Source: Gracilariopsis chorda (taxonomy: Eukaryota; Rhodophyta; Florideophyceae; Gracilariales; Gracilariaceae). Taken from it: 25,778 bases of DNA. Numbering within the stretch: position 1 is the stretch's first letter; each line of letters begins with the position of its first letter. The position numbers and the translations under genes were made by a program. Positions 6,442 through 23,518 of this stretch are shown piece after piece. Below the pieces are notes generated by a model, which did not search any database, was not told the DNA's origin, and saw only the letters and a program-made list of their open reading frames with translations. Where the stretch lies: NCBI GenBank assembly GCA_003194525.1, contig NBIV01000439.1, forward strand, positions 1-25,778. Reading direction: 5' to 3'.

Positions 6442-7059
6442 TAGGACTTGGAGCACACACCCTTCGTGACTACAAGACGGCAAACGATTTGCTTATGATG
6501 GGCGAGATTAGCCAGATCTGTCGTCCTGATCGGCCAGCTTTGCGCGCTGTCATCACGCCTAGTGGACACGTGGAGCCACACTACCAATAAAGGAGTCGTC
6601 TCGCCGGCGCCTCCACCCGGACGAAGACGACCATCGATTCGGTCAGTCTCACGCGCTATAGCTCTTTCGCTGTGCAGCGCAGTCTGCGTCTCATTGTGCA
6701 ATGCTTATGTAAAGGACGTTTAGTGATTGCATCTGGGGCAAAAGTACATATGATTGGCTCATGGGAATTGAATCCAAAAATATCGCAGCAAGGACAACAT
6801 ATTCACAAATATATATTTTTCTACGCCTGCAGTTAACACAAATCTTCAGATCTGCCTGCAAGCTGTTCTGCTACAAGTTCTGGCATGAGATGTTCGTGAG
6901 TCTGTGTCAAACGACGTTAAGGCAATCAAACTCGATTTGCGCATGCCTATGTAGCAAAGATGTTGTACGCATTAAGTGCGCGCAGTCTGCAGCTACGCTT
7001 TCAAAGGTGATGTACGCGTCATAAGGTTTGAAATTTGCCTTTTTCGTTTGTTCTTAAAG
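6442..7059. other. No supportable gene
   Basis: Short frames only. About 6440-6700 is open on the minus strand in a low-information Arg-rich frame; I regard it as chance. It could contain the promoter of the minus-strand 407-aa gene (its ATG is at 6441) and the decayed 5' part of the DIS3 relic, whose recognisable homology starts at about 7075. Confidence 0.4.
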
Positions 7060-8051
7060 AAGAAGCCGAAGGATATTCCTACAGATGATGATGTGACCCA
7101 ATCGCTTCTGGGTTTGGCAGAAATTGCAAAGAAGTTAAGAAAGCGACGAATGAACTCAGGCGCTCTGATCTTGGCGTCACGCGAGGTGCAGTTCAAGATT
7201 GAAGAAGCACAAGACGAAGTTACGGGTGTGGCGATGTACGAAGTTCGTGAAACCAATCAAATGGTAGAGAAGTTTTATGCTCCTAGCGAATGTTGTTGTG
7301 ACCGGGAAGATTTTGAAGCATTTCCCTCAGTGCTCGATGCTTAGAAGACATCCAATACCGTCGGAGAAACTGCTCGAACCTCTAATTCGGGCTTAAAAAT
7401 GTGCCGGGTTTGACATCGAACAGTCAAACAGCAAGAGACTCAATGAGTCATTGGCTGAGGTTGAGAACATTGCAAAGGCAAGTAGAGATGAGTATCTAGG
7501 TACTTTGCTCACAAGCGGTGTACTTTTCCTCAGGAGAATTATCGGACACCGAATATTTGCATTACGGTTTGGCAGCGCCTGTGTACACCCACTTCACATC
7601 TTCCATTCGTAGGTACGCAGACGTCCTTGTTCATAGATTGCTCTCCGCGTGCCTTGGGTACGCGTGGCTTCCTGTATCTTTGCAGGATTCGCACAGAATG
7701 ATCCAATGTGCTGTGGCTATCAATCAAAGACACAGATGTGCTCAGTACGCTTCAAGGGCGTCCACATTGCTGCATACAGTTCTATTGTTCAAGGAAGAAG
7801 GTGAGAAGCTGGAACAAACTGCGCGCATCATTCGAATTCTCGGCAATGGTGTAGTGGTGCTCGTTCCGTGATATGGCGTTGAAAGTATAGTACACGTCAA
7901 TGATGATGAAAAATAGAAAGTTGATGATACGGGGTCGATGATGATGCTAAAGGATGGACGTACGTTGCAAGTTGTGGGTGAAGTGAAGGTGCGCATTAGG
8001 ATTGACCCAGCTCCTGAAAGAATGGGCAAAGTTGTGTTCAAACTGATCTGA
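7060..8051 (+). pseudogene. DIS3/RRP44 exosome ribonuclease relic (RNB C-terminal half plus S1)
   Basis: Three plus frames tile one DIS3-like protein. Frame 1 (about 7075-7277) carries the RNB segment with GALILASREVQF and YEVRETNQMVEKF. Frame 2 (7277-7516) continues with MLLANVVV and the LRRHPIPSE segment and has TAA at 7394-7396. Frame 3 (from 7518) has [18 protein letters not shown], then [18 protein letters not shown], the signature of the RNB core, and runs into an S1-type RNA-binding end, broken by TGA 7869-7871 and TAG 7914-7916, ending at TGA 8049-8051. DIS3 is the 3'-5' hydrolytic subunit of the RNA exosome. The catalytic aspartate cluster, the PIN domain and the cold-shock domains that precede this part are absent, so this is a C-terminal fragment with two frameshifts and at least three stops. 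It cannot encode an active enzyme; presumably an intact copy exists elsewhere. Confidence 0.85.
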
Positions 8052-15518: not shown

Positions 15519-15575
15519 CAAATCGTGACATGTATGTATATCCTACCTGGTAGGTTATATACCTGTCACGATTTG
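15519..15575. repeat. 57-base imperfect hairpin centred on CTACCTGGTAG
   Basis: CAAATCGTGACA (15519-15530) pairs perfectly with TGTCACGATTTG (15564-15575). The inner part (GTATGTATA against TATATAC) pairs partly, and the centre is the palindrome CTACCTGGTAG (15543-15553). Confidence 0.8.
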
Positions 15576-15714
15576 GATCCCCTACCTGGTAGACTGCTAC
15601 CAGGTAGGCTGACATAACTTGTCAGGATCTACCAGGTAGACTGACATATCGGGTTAAGCGTTACATATTGGTTCAGTGTATCAAACGGTTGATCTTTACA
15701 CGCATACCTGGTAG
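15543..15714. promoter_or_regulatory. Cluster of five CTACCWGGTAG palindromes
   Basis: Full 11-bp copies lie at 15543-15553, 15582-15592, 15597-15607 and 15629-15639; a shorter copy (TACCTGGTAG) is at 15705-15714. Two copies belong to a longer direct repeat, CTACCAGGTAG then RCTGACATA, with a 32-base period (15597 and 15629). Odd-length palindromes with a W centre repeated in a short interval look like binding sites for a dimeric regulator. The chromovirus now separates them from the divergent pair beginning at 21,632/21,653. Function is inference. Confidence 0.55.
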
Positions 15715-15716
15715 GG

Positions 15717-15721
15717 GTTGA
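15717..15721. repeat. Target site duplication, left copy (GTTGA)
   Basis: GTTGA directly precedes the 5' LTR (TGTTATG at 15722). The same five bases directly follow the 3' LTR end at 21285-21289. Five bp is the usual duplication length for Ty3/gypsy integrases. Confidence 0.9.
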
Positions 15722-16077
15722 TGTTATGAATTCTCGCCTTGATGGCAAGATAAGCATGCAAATTATAGGAATTTGGGATAAAACCCGAATTCAATCCCAA
15801 ATTTCCAAACTGCATTGCTTTAATGTATGAAAGTAATAACAGATAGATAGTATGAACATGAAATTATTGCTTTATTGGGGTCTATGCACTATTCTAAACT
15901 CTATATAAGAGGAAGAAAGTTGCCGCGGCCGACCGCGTCTTTCTTTCTTTCTTCCTCAACCAACTTAGAGTGGTTCGAGTGTCTAGAAGTACCTCCCCAC
16001 CAAAGTTTAAATGAAAGACATTTTTATTTTCTGTGTTTTGCTTCAACAGTAAGTGCTTACTGTCCAGAATTGCTACA
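15722..16077 (+). repeat. 5' LTR (356 bp)
   Basis: Starts TGTTATG after the GTTGA duplication and ends TTGCTACA, just before the primer site. The left boundary rests on the duplication. The right boundary rests on the 59-base match to the 3' copy (16019-16077 against 21226-21284, one mismatch). It contains a TATA box at 15902-15909 and, near its end, an ATG (16011) and a splice donor GTAAGT (16049). Confidence 0.85.
15902..15909 (+). promoter_or_regulatory. LTR TATA box
   Basis: TATATAAG in the middle of the 5' LTR; transcription would be expected to start about 25-35 bases downstream, near 15930-15940. From there the first ATG in the transcript is at 16011. The truncated 3' LTR lacks this element. 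Confidence 0.65.
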
Positions 16078-17011
16078 TCTGGTAGCATCGCCCTCTTACA
16101 GTACTAACCAGTTTACAGTTTCCAACACCACTGACAGAAACAAACAAGCTGACCTGACAACTGATGGTCAGACTGACAAACCTCATCGTACTGAAAGGAC
16201 TTTGGACCCCACAACCAATCAGAAAGCGACAAGTCCAACCAGTCAGAAAGCGACAACTGGCAGCCAGCGGTCGTCGGTGGAAATCATTTCGAGTCACTCA
16301 GTGGACAGGTCGTCCACGTGTAACAAACAGCACACTGTTACACGTTTACCTCGCCTTAGTGACGCTCATAATTTCAAAAAGGGCAAAATTTCAAAACCAT
16401 TGAAACCGAGATCACCGAGGCCAATCCGTCATCAGCGGCTATTGAACCAAGTAACCGTGAGGTTACCCGGGGATGAGGATAAGTTTATTCCGATAACTCC
16501 TCATCACCTCCACGCCGGTAACCGGTCCGGTAACCGCTTAGATCGATTTTTGACGGCGGTGAACAAAGCTCGTTTCGAAGGTGATCCAATTGGTCGACGT
16601 CAGCTAACTCGTGACAACGTGACTACCAACAACGGTGACACCTGTAAAGTTTGTCACCCACCAAAGTCACGCACCGTTTCGTGGGCAGATCACAACAGTT
16701 CAGCCAATCACATTCGCTCGTTGATCAGCCAATCAGGATTCGGTGTTGCACGTCATCGTGTGCAGCTGGAATTCGTGGACAAGTTGAAGGTGCATTGCTC
16801 TGTCTGCAATTTGTGGTGTGAGGACGTTCTGTCTTACAGTCATCACTACCTTACAGAAGTTCATCAACAAAGGGTGTCAGCCTTCTTGGAATATGCCAAT
16901 GTGGCAACGTTTCCAGACGGCTTGCATATTACAAGTGTAACGAAAACGCCCAAGGAAACTGCTGATACTATAAGCATAGTAATTAGGCATTTTAAATCTA
17001 AGAATCTTTAA
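16011..17011 (+). CDS. Chromovirus accessory ORF with two JAZ/U1-type zinc fingers
   Basis: A frame open from before 15875 to TAA 17009-17011 lies between the primer site and gag, where most chromoviruses have nothing. It contains no ATG after the primer site. With the candidate intron 16049-16101 removed, translation starts at ATG 16011 in the LTR and gives about 315 residues. The first third is Thr/Ser/Gln-rich with a short QKAT repeat, the middle is basic (KKGKISKPLKPRSPRP near 16380), then two zinc fingers of identical spacing C-x2-C-x12-H-x5-H: one at 16643-16711 (CKVC...H...H) and one at 16796-16864 (CSVC...H...H). The x5 His spacing is that of the JAZ/U1C/matrin class, several of which bind double-stranded or structured RNA. 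Role unknown: RNA packaging, a silencing countermeasure or nuclear targeting are possibilities. Unlike gag and pol it has no internal stop. Confidence 0.7.
16049..16101 (+). other. Candidate intron spanning LTR end and primer site
   Basis: GTAAGT donor at 16049 and CCCTCTTACAG acceptor ending 16101 (53 bases). Removal joins ATG 16011 in phase to the zinc-finger ORF. The donor lies in an 8-bp inverted repeat, ACAGTAAG-TG-CTTACTGT (16046-16063), conserved in the 3' LTR copy (21253-21270). Competing acceptors at 16111 and 16118 would not keep the frame; the 16118 one has a TACTAAC branch-like motif just upstream. Confidence 0.5.
16080..16097 (+). other. tRNA primer-binding site
   Basis: TGGTAGCATCGCCCTCTT starts two bases after the LTR end. 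The complement ends in CCA as a tRNA 3' end must. The first eight bases equal those of primer sites that use initiator tRNA-Met in animals (TGGTAGCA); beyond that the match is not known. Confidence 0.75.
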
Positions 17012-17060
17012 GTTGGAATAAATTTCTGCATTATTTTGCTTAAAATAGCTATGAACTAAA

Positions 17061-17921
17061 ATGACCGATCAAAATAATTTACCATATAATCAAAATATAC
17101 AAGCTCTACAAGAACTCCAACAACAAGTAAATAATTTACAACAACAATTGCATAATGCGAATCAAGCCTTTATTTCTTTAATGAATTCTAACCAATCTAC
17201 ATCTACACAAAAAGTAGGTAAACCTGAAAAGTTTTCCGGTAAAGGTGTACGTAGTTGGATAAAGGGCTTAGAAAATATTTTTATTAGCATGCATCAAGCA
17301 CCAAGTGATGAACCAAAAATCAAATACGCTGTAAGTTATATGAGCGGTGATGCACTGCAATGGTGGGAACTAATCACCATTGATGGTGATGAATTAATAT
17401 CATACGATACATTTAAATCCAAACTGTAAGAATATTTTGAGCCTGTTAATAGAGAACTAACAGCTTGCAAAAAACTAAGTGAGTTAAAACAGATTGGAAA
17501 GTTTAGTACTGTACGATCCTATAACCAAGAGTTCACAAAATGGTTATTACAGATACCAACCATGAGTATATCAGAACCATTATTTCATTATAGTCAAGGA
17601 CTAAAAACAAAACCCAAAATTGAAGTAATAAGGTCTGACCCTACTGATATTCAAAAAGCAATGAAGATTGCACATAAAATAGATCACATATTCCGTAACG
17701 ATACCTGGGGAGGAAATCGTTCGGGAAGTAGTAGTTCTGGAAGCAATGGGCCAACGCCAATGCAAATTGGAAATCTTAATATGAGAAGGATACCCTTCGT
17801 ATCAAAAGAAGAAAAGAAACGATGTTTAGAAGATAAACTTTGTTTCATATGCAAGAAAAAAGATTGCATAGCAAGAAATCATTATAAGAGAAATTACGAA
17901 GGTAACCAGTCAAAAAACTAA
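17061..17921 (+). pseudogene. Chromovirus gag with one internal stop
   Basis: ATG 17061, 49 bases after the accessory ORF; frame ends at TAA 17919-17921, 286 codons, interrupted by TAA 17427-17429 (before EYFEPVNREL). N-terminal Gln/Asn-rich coiled coil (about residues 10-40), then a retrotransposon gag capsid-like segment (FSGKGVRSWIKGLE, and later W-rich ALQWWEL and SYNQEFTKWLLQ). Near the C-terminus a zinc knuckle-like motif at 17841-17882 has the order C-x2-C-x4-C-x4-H, not the usual CCHC. Gag forms the virus-like particle and the knuckle binds RNA. The frame ends in the heptamer A AAA AAC followed at once by TAA, suggesting frameshifting into pol. Confidence 0.85.
17912..17918 (+). promoter_or_regulatory. 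Candidate -1 ribosomal frameshift site A AAA AAC
   Basis: In the gag frame the codons are TCA AAA AAC TAA, so the heptamer has exactly the X XXY YYZ phase. Slipping by -1 enters the pol frame (CTA AAG AAA GCC CTA ATG), which is open until 18416. Eight bases downstream a weak stem CTAAT/ATTAG (17930-17934 with 17944-17948), with two outer GC pairs across a mismatch, could act as stimulator. Alternatively pol may start at ATG 17933. Confidence 0.6.
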
Positions 17922-20900
17922 AGAAAGCCCTAATGCCTTCTATATTAGCGCAGCCCAATAAATCAACTCATAAAGATTACCAAAATCGTCAAAAGCACAG
18001 GAATAGAAGTAAGGATAGGATTTCTATCCACCATAAAGAAAATAAAACTATAAAGATATGCGCCTTTTCTCCAGTTAAAGAAAGAAAAGTCTCGAGAAAA
18101 AGTAAGTTACTAATCTTCAATGGAGAAGTAATACGTTTAAAGCCACATAAGTGTAAAGTCTTAGTAGACAGTGGCTGTGAGGAGATTATAATCTCAAAAG
18201 AGTTTGCAGAGAAGTTAAATCTGCAACTTAATAAGTCAGACTTACAAGCAGAATTTTCGGATGGAACTCTAGTTTTTATGAACAGGAGTTCAAGTGTGCT
18301 AACTCTAAAAATTAATGAATTTTGCTTTGACATTAAACCGTATGTGGTAGATTTGATACTGTATGACATAATCCCAGGCAAGTCATGGTTATCAGAGATA
18401 AATCCATTTATAAATTGAAAGTCAGATCGCATGCTCATTAACTTAGAAGGTAAGCAAGTTATTCTGGACGCAGAATCTTGTAGGTATGAGGCCACATCCC
18501 GACCGACATTCCTACGTACCAGTAAGCAATTCGCGAGGCTTGTAAGGAAAAGTAAATCCATGATATATCATGTTGTTGTGAAGGCAAGTCCAGACAAGTC
18601 TAAGTCCGAGCCTAAAGTGAAGTTAAAGTCTAGACAAAGTTTTATGTTAAAGTCAAAGAGTGAATCAAATTTGATTAAGAGTACAAGCAACATTGAGTTA
18701 AAACAGCTGTTAAAAAATTATGAAGATATTTTCCCAGAGAAGCTACCAAGAGAATTACCTCCTCATAGAGAAGTTGAAATGAGGATAGATCTCGAAGAAG
18801 GAGCAAAACCTAAAATGGGAACAATTTATAAGTTGTCAAAGGTGGAACTACAAGAAATGAAAAAGCAGCTTGCAGAGCTATTAGCTTGTGGTTTCATAAG
18901 ACCAAGTATAAGTCCTTGGGGAAGCCCCGTTCTTTTTATTAAAAAGAAAGATGGAGGACTAAGAATGTGTATTGATTATCGTGCTCTCAATAAGCAGACG
19001 AAAAAAAATCAAGTACCATTACCAAGAATTGATGAAATTTGGGACCAAGTGGGAGGAGCAAAAGTATTCTCAGCCCTTGATCTCAGATCTGGATATAATC
19101 AAATAAGAATGAGAGAAGGTGATATAGAGAAAAGAGCCTTCCGAACTAGATATGGTCAGTTTGAATATCTAATTACACCGTTTGGTCTTACTGGAGCTCC
19201 TGGATGCTTCCAAACATACATGAATATTCTATTCAGGAAACATCTTGACGAGTTCGTATTAGTATATCTAGATGATATACTAATATATAGTAATACCACA
19301 GAAGAGCATCTCAGACATCTCAAATAAGTATTTGAGATTCTAAGAAAGCATAAATTGTATGTCAAATTATCAAAATGTAAGTTTATGGACAAATCCATCG
19401 AATATTTAGGACATGTTATTACAACAGAAGGAATTAAAGTCAATCCACAAAAAACAGAAGCCATAATGAATTGAGAAATTCCTACGAGTATAACAGAGCT
19501 TCAAAGCTTCTTAGGATTGTGTAATTATTACAGAAGGTTTGTGAAGGATTTTTCAAAAATTGCTTCACCCCTCACAGACTTAACTAAGAAAACGAATCCT
19601 TTTATATGGAACTCAAAAGAAAATGATTCGTTTGAACAACTGGAAGATGCATTAAGTCATACGCCAGTTCTAAGATGTGCAGATCCCTCACTACCGTATG
19701 AGTTAACTGCAGACGCATCTCAAACAGGAATTGGTGCAGTATTATCACAAACAGAAAATGAACTAAGTAGACCCGTTGCTTTTGCTTCAAGAAAATTATC
19801 TGCAACTGAGCAAGGCTACTCTACGCATGAGAGAGAGTTACTCGCTATTGTGTATGCATTAGAAACATGGAGATCGTATTTACATGGAGCCAAATTCATA
19901 GTATATACTGATCATCATCCCTTAAAACACTTAGAAAAGCAAAAGAGTTTGTCAAGAAAACAAGCAAGATGGGTTGAGTTTATGCAAGAATTTGATTACT
20001 AGATCAAATATATCAAAGGCAAACTAAACAAGGTTGCCGATGCATTATCAAGAAAACACAAAGAAATACATGAAGTATCAGTTGATTTTATAAAGAAATT
20101 GATGAGTATAACAACAGTTCAAGTACAAGAAAAAATATTGAAAAGACTAATATCAGATTATATGCAAGATGAGTTCTTTAGAAATGTAATGAATGACCCT
20201 AAAGAACCATTTGAGAGAAAAAATAATAGACTATACCTTGAGAATCGTCTATGTATTCCAAAAGGGGAATTAAGAGACCAAATTCTATATGATTGTCATA
20301 CATCTATACTTGGCGCTCATAGAGGTTCTCAGAAAACTATAGCTTTGATCAGAAGTTCTTATTTCTGGCCAAAGATGAATAACGATATTAAGGAATACGT
20401 TAAACACTGCTATGAATGTCAAACTTCTAAAAGTAGTAATGAACGATCACAAGGTTTATTACGACCATTTCCACCTCCCAGCAAAAAGTGGGAAGTCATA
20501 TCAATGGATTTCATATTCGATTTACCAAAAACCAAAAACGAAATGTGTTCCATATTAGCAGTTGTGGACAAACTATCAAAGAGAACGCATTTTATACCAA
20601 TGAAATCCAATGTAAATGCGAAAGATAAAGCAGAAGTATTTTATAAAGATGTGTATAAACACCATGGACTACCGCGAAAAATATTATCAGACCGACACTC
20701 AAGATTTACAGGAAGTTTCTGGAAAGAACTAATGCGAACCTTTAAAGTGAAACTGAACTTATCAACAGCATTTCATCCGCAAACTGATGGTCAATCAGAA
20801 CGATCTTTCAGAACGTTAGAAGAAATGCTTCGATGTTTCATTAGTTACACTCAAAGAGATTGGGATACATATCTCCCTGGTCTTGAATTTGCATACAATA

Positions 20901-20923
20901 ATCATCCAGAGTCTATGAAGTAA
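17918..20923 (+). pseudogene. Chromovirus pol: protease, RT, RNase H, integrase core
   Basis: One frame carries everything, with stops at 18416 (TGA), 19325 (TAA), 19472 (TGA) and 20000 (TAG). Protease: VDSG at 18164-18175, the aspartic protease motif. [29 protein letters not shown] (usual FGLTNAP), and YLDD at 19265-19276, the catalytic pair. RNase H: catalytic-type Asp at 19712 (ADAS), then HEREL and YTDHHPL. Integrase: H-H-C-C zinc module (about 20294-20430) and the DDE triad with Asp 20507 (SMDF), Asp 20690 (SDRH, normally SDRD) and Glu 20798 (QSERS). The core runs to AYNNH, then a deletion removes about 150 codons. Every assignable stop sits at a residue where the family has Gln or Trp, so each could be a C-to-T or G-to-A change. 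The enzyme set copies RNA to DNA and integrates it; this copy cannot act alone. Confidence 0.93.
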
Positions 20924-21225
20924 AATTAGCAAAGGAGTTGGAACAAATTCATCCTATCTTTCATGTATCATTGTTGAAACCATATCATGAGAACGTCAAT
21001 TCAGAAGACAGTAGGAAGCAAGCGCAAAGAGAACTAATCATCCAGAAGAAGGACCTCAGTATTGATCAGATACTAAACCACCGCATTCGAAAGAGCAAGC
21101 TCGAATACCTAAAACACTATAAAAACCGGGACGATACCGAGAATCGTTGAGTGGATAGTCACACCATCATCACCACCGTCAAGCCGGAGATTATTGACAA
21201 CTACACATCCAAACACTTTATCAAT
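20914..21225 (+). pseudogene. Integrase C-terminal end and chromodomain, after deletion
   Basis: After a deletion near 20905-20914 the frame changes by -1 and reads YEVKLAKELEQIHPIFHVSLLKPYH, the usual end of the integrase C-terminal (GPY/F-like) region. About 25 residues later comes a chromodomain start (DQILNHRIRKSKLEYL, 21064-21111), then TENR followed by TGA 21148-21150 where chromodomains have the Trp of an ENTWEP motif, then in frame PEIIDNYTSKH, resembling the chromodomain's final helix. Chromodomains in such elements direct insertion to modified histones. The segment runs straight into the 59-base 3' LTR remnant; no polypurine tract is visible, so it was lost. Confidence 0.8.
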
Positions 21226-21284
21226 CATTTTTATTTTCTGTCTTTTGCTTCAACAGTAAGTGCTTACTGTCCAGAATTGCTACA
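21226..21284 (+). repeat. Truncated 3' LTR (last 59 bp)
   Basis: 58 of 59 bases match 16019-16077. Sequence to its left does not match the 5' LTR, so about 297 bases (U3, TATA) and the polypurine tract are missing. It ends TACA and is followed by the GTTGA duplication, so the right end of the insertion is intact and the loss is internal. Confidence 0.9.
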
Positions 21285-21289
21285 GTTGA
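21285..21289. repeat. Target site duplication, right copy (GTTGA)
   Basis: Directly follows the 3' LTR end and equals 15717-15721. Confidence 0.9.
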
Positions 21290-21305: not shown

Positions 21306-21632
21306 CTAATATGAATCTACCGTTGCACAAGACTGACCACCAACATGGTGTGACGTTTGCGAAACGGCCGGGCGTCTAATTCTGGTCCGGTTGGCGAAGG
21401 TTCCCGCCAAGAGTGAGTGATGTTTCTGTAAGCGCTCGGGGAGGTGTTCAACTCTCGTTACTTGTATGAGTTCGGAGAGAGAAGGGTAGGGCTGCGGAGC
21501 AGGATTCAGGGAACTTTCGACTTCAAGCACAAACGCTATGCCGCGCAGAGTCGTTAGGCCCAGTCTACTGCTTAAACGCTCGCCACGCCACACTCGCCCC
21601 GCAATCGTAGCTGCATTGACCTTCGAAGCCAT
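21306..21632 (-). CDS. Unrecognised 108-aa protein, divergent from the repeat-rich gene
   Basis: ATG at 21632 in a good context (CAG-ATG-GCT), open to TAG at 21306. The N-terminus is basic and hydrophobic with Arg at regular intervals (RVWRGERLSSRLGLTTLRG), which could be a mitochondrial targeting sequence; the rest is Pro/Ser/Leu mixed. No domain recognised. Its start is only 20 bases from the ATG of the plus-strand gene, so the two would share a promoter-sized gap far too small for separate regulation. It may instead be an antisense frame in the 5' region of that gene. It ends 17 bases from the retrotransposon's target duplication. Confidence 0.35.
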   Translation of the reverse strand: MASKVNAATIAGRVWRGERLSSRLGLTTLRGIAFVLEVESSLNPAPQPYPSLSELIQVTRVEHLPERLQKHHSLLAGTFANRTRIRRPAVSQTSHHVGGQSCATVDSY

Positions 21633-21652
21633 CTGAAGTTGAAACGTTGGAC

Positions 21653-23518
21653 ATGATGAGGTGCGTTACACGATCACAGACTTGCGCCCTGCAAGAATTG
21701 TCCGCCAATACCATGGGTGAGGCACCTAGAGATCTGCCAGACCCTGTCCATAAGAAGAAGGGAAAGGGGAATGCCCGTCATGCTGCCAAAGAAATCTACA
21801 AGGAGACGGGGCGCGATGTGCGTGAGGAGCCGAATCTAAGTGAAAACCCTGAAGTGAGCGATGCCTCAAATATGAGAGATGAGCCCAATGAGCACTATGT
21901 GGGAGATCAGCCCGATGAACCCGTAAGGGGCAATGAGCCCAAAGTGAGAGATCAGCCCGATGAGCCGAACGGCGATGAGGAGCCTGAAGTGGAAGATCAG
22001 CCTGACCAGCCCGTAAACGACAATGAGCCCGACATGGGCGATGAGCCCCATGATCTCGAAGAAGGGGGTGAGCCCCATGAGCCCAAAGAGGGCAATGAGC
22101 CCAATGAGCCCGAAGAGGGCATTGAGCCCAATGAGCCCGAAGAAGGCATTGAGCCCGAGAAGCTCGAAGAGGGCAATGAGCCCGAGAAGCCCGAAGAGGG
22201 CAATGAGCCCGAGAAGCCCGAAGAGGGCAATGAGCCCGATTATCCCGAAGAGGGCAATGAGCCCGATAAGCCCGAAGAGGGCAATGAGCACCATGAGCCC
22301 CAAGATGGCGATAGGCCTCATGAGCCCAAAGAGGGAGATGAGCCGCTTGTGGATGGGCTCGAGGAACCACAGGTCAATTGGGACGGGAGCCGGGCCACTG
22401 ACTCCTCGGAATGTGAAGAATTGGAAAGCTGTATTGAAGAGTACTTGGATTGTGAGGAATTTATGGGAGTGGGAGGCACCAAGAAGCCAGAAGCTGCGAA
22501 CGAGCCCTTAGCCAATGCTATAGAGCGGGTTCATATATGTCAAGAGGATGATATGAGCAAGGCAGAAAGCGAAACTGTCATTAATGGTACAATACCCGAC
22601 ATTTTGCGCTGGGCCATTCACTACCACCGAAGGATGTCGGTTGCAGGCACCAATATCACATTACCAAGGCCGCCTGCAATTGCTGTCGGAGTAAGCGTCA
22701 CATTTTGGAACGGAGGAAAGCGGTTCTGGGAGAACGTTACCCGCTTCGCGAGTGCTATGCCTGCTTTTGGACAATTCGAGAATGTATTGTACGCTATGGA
22801 GCGATATCCGTCCTCGGTCCTAGTACATACTGGCTTCAAACTCCTCTTTGAGAAGTACAAGAAGATCGGGAACAAGTCAGTTCCAACTCTCATACCAAGC
22901 TCTAATGCCTTCTTGGAGTTCAGTGTGCTGAAGGCCAACAGCATCGCTAAAGACTGGTACGAGGAAGATTCTCACACGAGACTGCAAGAGGCTGCAGTCC
23001 ACTTGACGGCCGTGGCTGAGTATATACTGCGATGTGCTTTCATCTCTTTTCAACCCGGTAGCAATGCATTATTCTCTAGCATGCTCACAACGAGCATAAC
23101 AATGGCCGGAAGTGAAGAAGATCCCCTGCTAGTGCTTCCGAGCTCGAAAGGACTGTTGAGGGATCTATCGGAAGAAGACGCTTACGAATGTCTCAATCTT
23201 GCTATGAAGGACGCTCACAATGCAGTTATCCGTGGTAGCGCAGTCTCGGGTAGAAAGAATGGCAAGAAACGATGTACCTCCACCAGTCGTGAGCGGCTCA
23301 AACTCCAGAACCTCCAGGATATCCCCTCAGAAGTTTTAAACCTACTGATTGCGATCTTGAGAGAGTCCGTAACTACGACAGCATCAGCTACGAATAGATC
23401 TGAGGAGCTCAATTCCGACGAATTCGAATACCAGATGAAGAAGGTATTTCGTGGAGTTATGGCTCTCTACAGACATGTTGGGATGAAGTTCTTTGTGGAT
23501 GTATTTGGATCCGAGTGA
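21653..23518 (+). CDS. Intact 621-aa protein with ten acidic 9-residue repeats, unrecognised
   Basis: The frame is open from 21647 but the first ATG is 21653; TGA at 23516-23518. It has a short N-terminal region with a Lys-rich patch (HKKKGKG), then about 160 residues dominated by Glu, Pro, Asp, Gly and Asn including ten 9-residue repeats (consensus GNEPEKPEE, 22064-22336), then about 350 residues of ordinary composition, largely helical, with conserved-looking segments DILRWAIHYHRRMS, FWNGGKRFWENVTRF and a C-terminal VMALYRHVGMKFFVDVF. No signal peptide or membrane span. No family recognised. The acidic repeat is probably disordered, giving a flexible or decoy-like arm. It is the only long single-exon gene in the right half that has no stop, between two defective retrotransposons. 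The C-terminal domain could be a lineage-specific or transposon-derived protein. Confidence 0.75.
   Translation: MMRCVTRSQTCALQELSANTMGEAPRDLPDPVHKKKGKGNARHAAKEIYKETGRDVREEPNLSENPEVSDASNMRDEPNEHYVGDQPDEPVRGNEPKVRDQPDEPNGDEEPEVEDQPDQPVNDNEPDMGDEPHDLEEGGEPHEPKEGNEPNEPEEGIEPNEPEEGIEPEKLEEGNEPEKPEEGNEPEKPEEGNEPDYPEEGNEPDKPEEGNEHHEPQDGDRPHEPKEGDEPLVDGLEEPQVNWDGSRATDSSECEELESCIEEYLDCEEFMGVGGTKKPEAANEPLANAIERVHICQEDDMSKAESETVINGTIPDILRWAIHYHRRMSVAGTNITLPRPPAIAVGVSVTFWNGGKRFWENVTRFASAMPAFGQFENVLYAMERYPSSVLVHTGFKLLFEKYKKIGNKSVPTLIPSSNAFLEFSVLKANSIAKDWYEEDSHTRLQEAAVHLTAVAEYILRCAFISFQPGSNALFSSMLTTSITMAGSEEDPLLVLPSSKGLLRDLSEEDAYECLNLAMKDAHNAVIRGSAVSGRKNGKKRCTSTSRERLKLQNLQDIPSEVLNLLIAILRESVTTTASATNRSEELNSDEFEYQMKKVFRGVMALYRHVGMKFFVDVFGSE
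22064..22336 (+). repeat. 27-bp coding tandem repeat (about ten units)
   Basis: Ten units of 27 bases encode GNEPEKPEE and variants (GIEPNEPEE, GNEPDYPEE, GNEHHEPQD, GDRPHEPKE). Central units are nearly identical; outer units diverge, and a looser EP/DQP pattern continues upstream to about 21880. Period and reading frame coincide, so unit number can change without shifting the frame. Confidence 0.9.

Follow-up and report, generated by a model that had tools for sequence, protein, structure and literature searches.

The element described here resembles the Ty3/gypsy chromoviruses in its order of gag, protease, reverse transcriptase (RT), RNase H and integrase, in the Tf2-1-type SH3 match and weak Chromo match of the window copy, and in its primer binding site for the initiator tRNA-Met. 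Unlike chromoviruses, its lineage carries an extra conserved gene between the primer binding site and gag, with a splice donor signal inside the long terminal repeat (LTR). To our knowledge, an extra pre-gag gene with an LTR donor is not a chromovirus feature. Among the other retrotransposons compared here, the plant Ty3/gypsy elements with extra ORFs belong to the OTA superclade (Athila, Tat/Ogre), a non-chromovirus clade, and BARE is a Copia-type element. Extra ORFs of plant LTR retrotransposons are described, in the available text of a report, as lying mostly between pol and the 3' LTR (PMC7264820), and in that of another a class termed eORF-5'F consists of forward-oriented ORFs in the element's 5' part (PMC6317226). 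The likeness to the algal element lies in the additional forward ORF in the 5' part; the accessible portions of both reports mention neither a two-finger U1/JAZ protein nor a start made by splicing (PMC6317226, PMC7264820).

Three systems are comparable in their use of splicing, as far as the available excerpts describe them. In foamy viruses the major splice donor lies inside the R region of the LTR (PMC5035957); because this is upstream of the primer site, their subgenomic RNAs should lose that site. By its sequence signals, the algal element has the same layout of an LTR donor before the primer site and an acceptor before a gene, but foamy viruses are retroviruses, and the accessible text states no start codon split across the junction (PMC5035957). 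The BARE retrotransposon keeps separate RNA pools, and its splicing yields a Gag-only RNA, whereas splicing in the algal element would yield an accessory gene with a start made at the junction (PMC3735527). For P4 of rice tungro bacilliform virus, a leader splice provides the start of an accessory protein; there a leader upstream ORF is fused to a distal ORF, whereas the algal element would assemble the codon itself (PMC5902531). Among the titles and abstract openings listed in searches of the open-licence literature, none speaks of splicing as the origin of a start codon in a retroelement.

In this report we propose that the extra ORF, here called ORF1, is a conserved accessory gene for a protein with two U1/JAZ-like zinc fingers, and that its start codon is probably assembled by splicing of the leader, which would at the same time remove the primer binding site. 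We assign this reading a probability of about three in four.

The window, i.e., the whole stretch of DNA analysed, comprises 25,778 nt of a Gracilariopsis chorda contig (NBIV01000439.1); the genome searched comprises 91.3 Mb in 1081 contigs, and its seven phycobilisome linker matches, each above cut-off, befit a red-algal host. The element occupies positions 15722-21284 of the + strand, on which all its parts lie, between 5-bp GTTGA target-site duplications read from the sequence at 15717-15721 (left) and 21285-21289 (right). The 5' LTR (TGTTATG...GCTACA, 356 bp) spans 15722-16077, and 343 bp of it are duplicated in copy L032 at 97.7% identity; a TATA-like box, TATATAA, is read from the sequence at 15902-15908. 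The primer binding site TGGTAGCATCGC (16080-16091) is the complement of the 12 3'-terminal nucleotides, CCA included, of the initiator tRNA-Met; this host tRNA has four genes and was named from its CAT anticodon. The gag gene (17061-17921; ATG at 17061) gave a weak Ty3_capsid match and has an in-frame stop at 17427-17429. Remnants of protease, RT, RNase H and integrase follow at 17906-20923, split over separate frames, and the integrase C-terminus (20902-21147) shows SH3_Tf2-1 and a weak Chromo, both under the Pfam cut-off. Only the last 59 bp of the 3' LTR are present (21226-21284; 98.3% identical to 16019-16077).

The Pfam scan of the window copy gave the Ty3-type domain order gag-PR-RT-RH-INT, with RVP_2, RVT_1, RT_RNaseH and Integrase_H2C2 over cut-off, rve just under and Ty3_capsid under it. 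The Chromo match had an E-value of 0.0073 and 16.6 bits versus a cut-off of 25.1; in the tail of a young family (L076) no Chromo was found at E<=1, and SH3_Tf2-1 was matched at E 1.2e-15. Both gag and pol of the window copy are interrupted by stops and frame changes, and this copy is a dead, old relic of a chromovirus-like Ty3/gypsy element. Immediately to its left, at 15519-15720, is a cluster of palindromic CTACCAGGTAG-type motifs, and to its right, at 21620-23518, a frame of 632 codons with a 27-bp tandem repeat (EPEKPEEGN-like). Elsewhere in the window, at 6976-7871, two pieces of an RNB (RNase II/DIS3-like) domain occupy different frames and may be what is left of a decayed gene.

Between the primer binding site and the gag ATG lies ORF1, whose frame is open from 15851 to 17011 (stop to stop, 386 codons). 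A sequence-only reading of this DNA had described an extra ORF of about 300 codons here, which holds, and had placed its start at the ATG at 16011, which does not: that ATG opens a 13-codon upstream ORF (16011-16052) in a different frame and is missing from copies L031, L032 and L033. A splice from the same ATG into the CAG at 16099-16101 was also considered and rejected, as it fits the window copy alone. The only in-frame ATG, at 15884, is upstream of the TATA-like box, so that ORF1 is left without a usable in-frame ATG. The 5' part of the 386-codon frame, which crosses the LTR and the primer site, is probably non-coding, and the coding part likely begins at the putative splice acceptor, at 16119, and runs to the TAA ending at 17011. 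These approximately 296 codons contain no methionine codon. ORF1 had further been taken for the only gene of the element without a nonsense change; it is indeed free of stops, in contrast to gag, but it is not intact, since its junction codon in this copy would not be ATG. Nor does the analysis support a plain extra reading frame, as had been assumed: the leader carries intron signals, and a start codon could be made by splicing instead.

Used as a genome-wide query, the window ORF1 matched 40 stretches, and the ORF1 of the young family matched 42; the matches inspected, a part of all hits, are located in element copies. ORF1 is found upstream of gag in four subfamilies, A1 (the window copy, C65, C96 and C10:57k), A2, B and C. 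The nearest relatives of the window ORF1, in C65 and C96, are 91% identical to it, group A2 (C145, C91, C151, C37 and the C266 array) shows about half identity, and in subfamilies B (C122, C100 and others) and C the ORF1 is shorter, at approximately 160 codons, and carries the same pair of fingers. The family C copy in C73 is flanked by the 5-bp repeat CAAAC and has 371-bp LTRs that are 100% identical, and family C is therefore young. With ORF1 present in further copies and in three further subfamilies, it is a gene of the element lineage and not of one copy.

For RT, 150 of 3298 candidates were scored and compared by eye with ORF1 places: among these 150, ORF1-bearing copies mostly have 64-98% RT identity (C327, 59%), and whole-length RT matches of other lineages reach at most 58%; a few short RT pieces (C72, C10:43763, C369) are at 78-87%. 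When the young ORF1 or a profile served as query, protein searches returned two proteins only, at 99% and 63% identity, both from the source 'lgn'; the protein search with the window ORF1 returned 0 matches, and a search of viral contigs for ORF1 gave none that was confirmed. As to genomic arrangement, ten decayed ORF1 copies form a head-to-tail array at C266:34515-78381 with a spacing of 4.79-4.82 kb, and family C copies stand in tandem in C225, C509, C755, C84 and C943 with a spacing of about 6.35 kb, as if LTRs were shared. The C73 copy has a further frame of 155 codons between pol and the 3' LTR (L076:843-1307), which had no Pfam match at E<=1.

Selection on ORF1 was assessed by Nei-Gojobori counts on tblastn-aligned codons. 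Between families C and B, dN was 0.23-0.30 in 24 pairs with dS near or past saturation, and omega was 0.08-0.12 in those 10 pairs for which dS was finite; differences were distributed over the codon positions as, e.g., 41/22/85. For gag, four C-B pairs gave an omega of 0.10-0.17. Plain DNA alignment gave 43, 23 and 89 differing sites by codon position for ORF1 of C versus B, and 42, 34 and 74 for the window versus L051, while the spacer behind ORF1 (43/29/39) was without third-position excess. Against A2-type copies, the window ORF1 had an omega of 0.17-0.23 in three of five pairs, the other two being saturated. Values were about 0.35-0.7 in mid-distance pairs, and in close pairs of decayed copies they were 1.03 (window and L031), 0.58 (window and L032), 0.65 (window and L033) and 1.26 (L053 and L054). 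Close or intermediate pairs overall thus show a relaxed omega of about 0.3-1.3, and the near-neutral values in close decayed pairs are those expected after insertion. The checks suggested by the sequence-only reading hence did not refute the gene: between B and C, ORF1 is under purifying selection like gag, with an omega of about 0.1.

Both fingers of ORF1 are real. In the window copy, the claimed pair of C-x2-C-x12-H-x5-H motifs, 28 residues apart, was recovered at 16643-16711 (finger 1) and 16796-16864 (finger 2). In 20,000 residue shuffles of the window ORF1, both motifs occurred together in 0 and at least one occurred in 12. Both cysteines and both histidines of finger 1 are invariant in five aligned rows; finger 2 has the same spacing in L066 and L053, where finger 1 has x11, and in L051 the pattern is kept in finger 1 only. 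In family C, finger 2 is followed by an arginine-rich stretch, HINRRRRVAQVYRAARK.

The assignment of these fingers to the JAZ/U1 class is supported by their geometry and by a profile comparison, and not by Pfam models. A Pfam-A scan of the window ORF1 (including zf-C2H2_jaz, zf-U1 and zf-met) gave 0 families at E<=1; matches of its relatives and of a window piece were sub-threshold (zf-U1 in L053, E 3.3; the best for a window piece, the KIN17 zinc finger, E 0.5; also weak zf-BED and zf-C2H2), and no single ORF1 sequence was over any Pfam cut-off. A profile of six ORF1 sequences searched against PDB matched the finger of Snu23 (5nrl_L), a 23-kDa U4/U6.U5 snRNP protein, with an E-value of 3.3e-5, followed by non-significant matches to the RNA-binding protein ZFa (1zu1_A, 0.018), Bud20 (3jct_I, 0.51), VMS1 (0.59) and TRIM69 (4.4); the single young ORF1 sequence matched Snu23 at E 0.07. 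The fingers of Snu23, ZFa and Bud20 are of the U1/JAZ/matrin type. These are not element proteins, the likeness covers about 35-45 residues around finger 2, and Snu23 alone is significant. A single-sequence AlphaFold2 model of a window ORF1 piece had a mean pLDDT of 45.6 and was unusable. RNA binding is a plausible activity of the protein, and the likeliest one, on the strength of these similarities; the RNA bound would most likely be the element's own.

In the window copy the putative intron has 70 nt (16049-16118, + strand), with the donor A/GTAAGT at 16049, a branch-like TACTAAC at 16102-16108 and the acceptor CAG at 16116-16118. The same order is kept across four subfamilies, viz. A/GTAAG in the LTR, the LTR end, the primer site, YTAAC and AG/TG, with GTAAG 29-34 nt before the primer site and a putative intron length, judged from sequence, of 57-81 nt. 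The TG after the acceptor supplies bases 2 and 3 of the first ORF1 codon. In copies with all parts, translation across an A/TG junction would give MSEQKK (C), MTEKED (B), in A1 MSNPT (L032) and MYNNT (L031), and in A2 MNVKK (L049); L016 and L051 would give MTAKK, but with the variant donors GTGAGA and GTACGA, respectively. The young ORF1 frame itself (L066) is without Met. A script recognised both donor and TATA-like box in 14 leaders out of 20 examined, and 11 of these 14 have no ATG between the two, the window, L030 and L072 being those that do; the young LTR has no ATG over 161 nt. Among the host snRNAs, one U1 and one U2 match were over cut-off, and the U1 match begins ATACTTACCTGG.

These signals go with ORF1. 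The exact combination AGTAAGT, primer site and AGTG occurs at 24 places in the genome, each with ORF1 within 400 nt (24/24), and the reversed-pattern control at 0 places. GTAAG lying 12-42 nt ahead of the 12-nt primer site was found at 27 places, all 27 with ORF1 on the same strand within 400 nt. Combined matches to ACA and the primer site number 191 in the genome; 100 of them were listed, 96 of these being distinct, and among the 96 the donor is present in 13 of the 15 with ORF1 and in 0 of the 81 without ORF1 within 1500 nt. Out of 20,000 dinucleotide-based shuffles each, 19, 2, 2 and 12 reproduced the joint signal (A1, A2, B and C, respectively), in a test that was framed after the signals were known and with families that share descent. 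The stretch from primer site to acceptor is 70-82% identical between families, so that its agreement may be plain descent. From donor to primer site, most families share only about half of the positions (13-16 of 29-33; B versus C, 20/29), and with this stretch diverged and the next still similar, it is the donor alone that stands out from its surroundings in conservation.

Exceptions are mostly old copies with other damage, apart from L067, which belongs to the young family. The acceptor or junction is altered in the window, L067, L050, L030 and L073; GT is missing from the donor position in L068 and L035, no donor could be recognised in L017, L051 has an altered and L016 a variant donor, and the leader of L078 is decayed. 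Next to the acceptor, L033 has an insert of about 354 bp with the repeat ACTAC, and L035 one of about 1.06 kb with the repeat CAGTA. Taken as candidates for variable introns, these were rejected, as their 5-bp repeats make them look like separate insertions; they are dissimilar and lie a few bases apart, perhaps at a shared integration target. The remote ORF1 copies C99 (L077) and C164 (L078) were too decayed for a full test of their leaders. In one copy of a next Ty3 lineage (L080, C30) the primer site is the same, no GTAAG occurs in the preceding 68 nt, and no finger motif occurs in three frames of 501 nt; about 2.9 kb separate its primer site from RT, and another leader gene may be there.

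Judged from these signals, the leader appears to be spliced and the junction AUG to be used. The LTR would provide a first exon ending in A beside a strong 5' splice site, the short intron would hold the LTR end and the tRNA primer site, and exon 2 would open with a TG that lies in the ORF1 frame. Splicing would join A and TG into the AUG of ORF1 and discard the primer site; in the young family, the LTR sequence ...AAAA would be joined to TGTCTGAG. Partial splicing of the LTR-driven RNA would then produce two classes of RNA. The spliced class, in which the junction AUG would come first, would be a messenger for ORF1 alone and, lacking the primer site, could not prime reverse transcription. The unspliced class would keep the primer site, lack the ORF1 AUG and serve for gag-pol and as genome. 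The sequence-only reading had suggested packaging, export or defence against host silencing as roles. The ORF1 protein may then act on element RNA by helping it to fold or to be packaged; a bolder reading makes it a switch for splicing or export. A switch of the Rev/Rex kind, binding donor, intron or primer region and either restraining splicing or carrying unspliced RNA to the cytoplasm or particles, would suit a Snu23-like finger (Snu23 being a U4/U6.U5 component) encoded by a message made only by splicing, and each round of splicing would shift RNA from messenger to genome; we consider this extension rather unlikely.

Other explanations place the start or the purpose of the intron elsewhere. 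ORF1 might be translated from unspliced RNA, by a non-AUG start at a conserved GTG or by an internal entry site, with the splice-like motifs incidental or otherwise used. AG/TG does read as an in-frame GTG at the junction codon in many of the 20 leaders, and the database proteins P0001 and P0002 start with M at GTG, as a gene caller would have it. Such a start nevertheless leaves unexplained why, among the matches listed, the donor accompanies nearly all primer sites with ORF1 and none of the others, and why donor, primer site, branch and acceptor keep a fixed order in four subfamilies, and we hold it to be quite improbable. A leader intron that serves mainly Gag expression or RNA export, with the junction ATG as a by-product, is very improbable. 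The distance from primer site to gag is 739-1025 nt in three copies measured, and in three of the four leaders tested the number of ATGs falls short of expectation (window, 5 versus 13.2; L053, 5 versus 11.6; L051, 5 versus 15.7; in L066, 9 versus 12.5, P 0.18), so that scanning to gag may matter. However, ORF1 evolves as a protein, with its third-position excess, low omega between C and B and retained finger residues, and no clear conserved acceptor was seen by eye directly before gag.

That ORF1 is a captured host exon or a functionless relic, the null stated in the sequence-only reading itself, agrees with the decay of the window copy and its nearest relatives, where omega is near 1 (as with L031), but ORF1 occurs in four subfamilies, between which dS is saturated or nearly so and omega is low; this contradicts the null, which we regard as extremely improbable. 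Expression could also proceed as proposed while the target of the fingers is DNA or a host protein, e.g., for aiming integration. C2H2 fingers are commonly DNA-binding, and the weak zf-BED and zf-C2H2 matches point the same way; the x5 histidine spacing and the best profile match being of U1/JAZ type (Snu23, then ZFa and Bud20) speak against it, and we think it unlikely.

If splicing of the leader does assemble the ORF1 start codon, a single intron would decide the fate of the RNA, its removal creating an accessory gene's start codon and deleting the site needed to prime reverse transcription. As the same intron sets both outcomes, messenger and genome fates could not mix. Genes like ORF1 will be missed by ORF finders that require an ATG. 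If confirmed, the arrangement would extend spliced accessory-gene expression beyond retroviruses and pararetroviruses, and would represent, in a red alga, a very compact answer to the conflict of retroelement RNA between serving as messenger and serving as genome.
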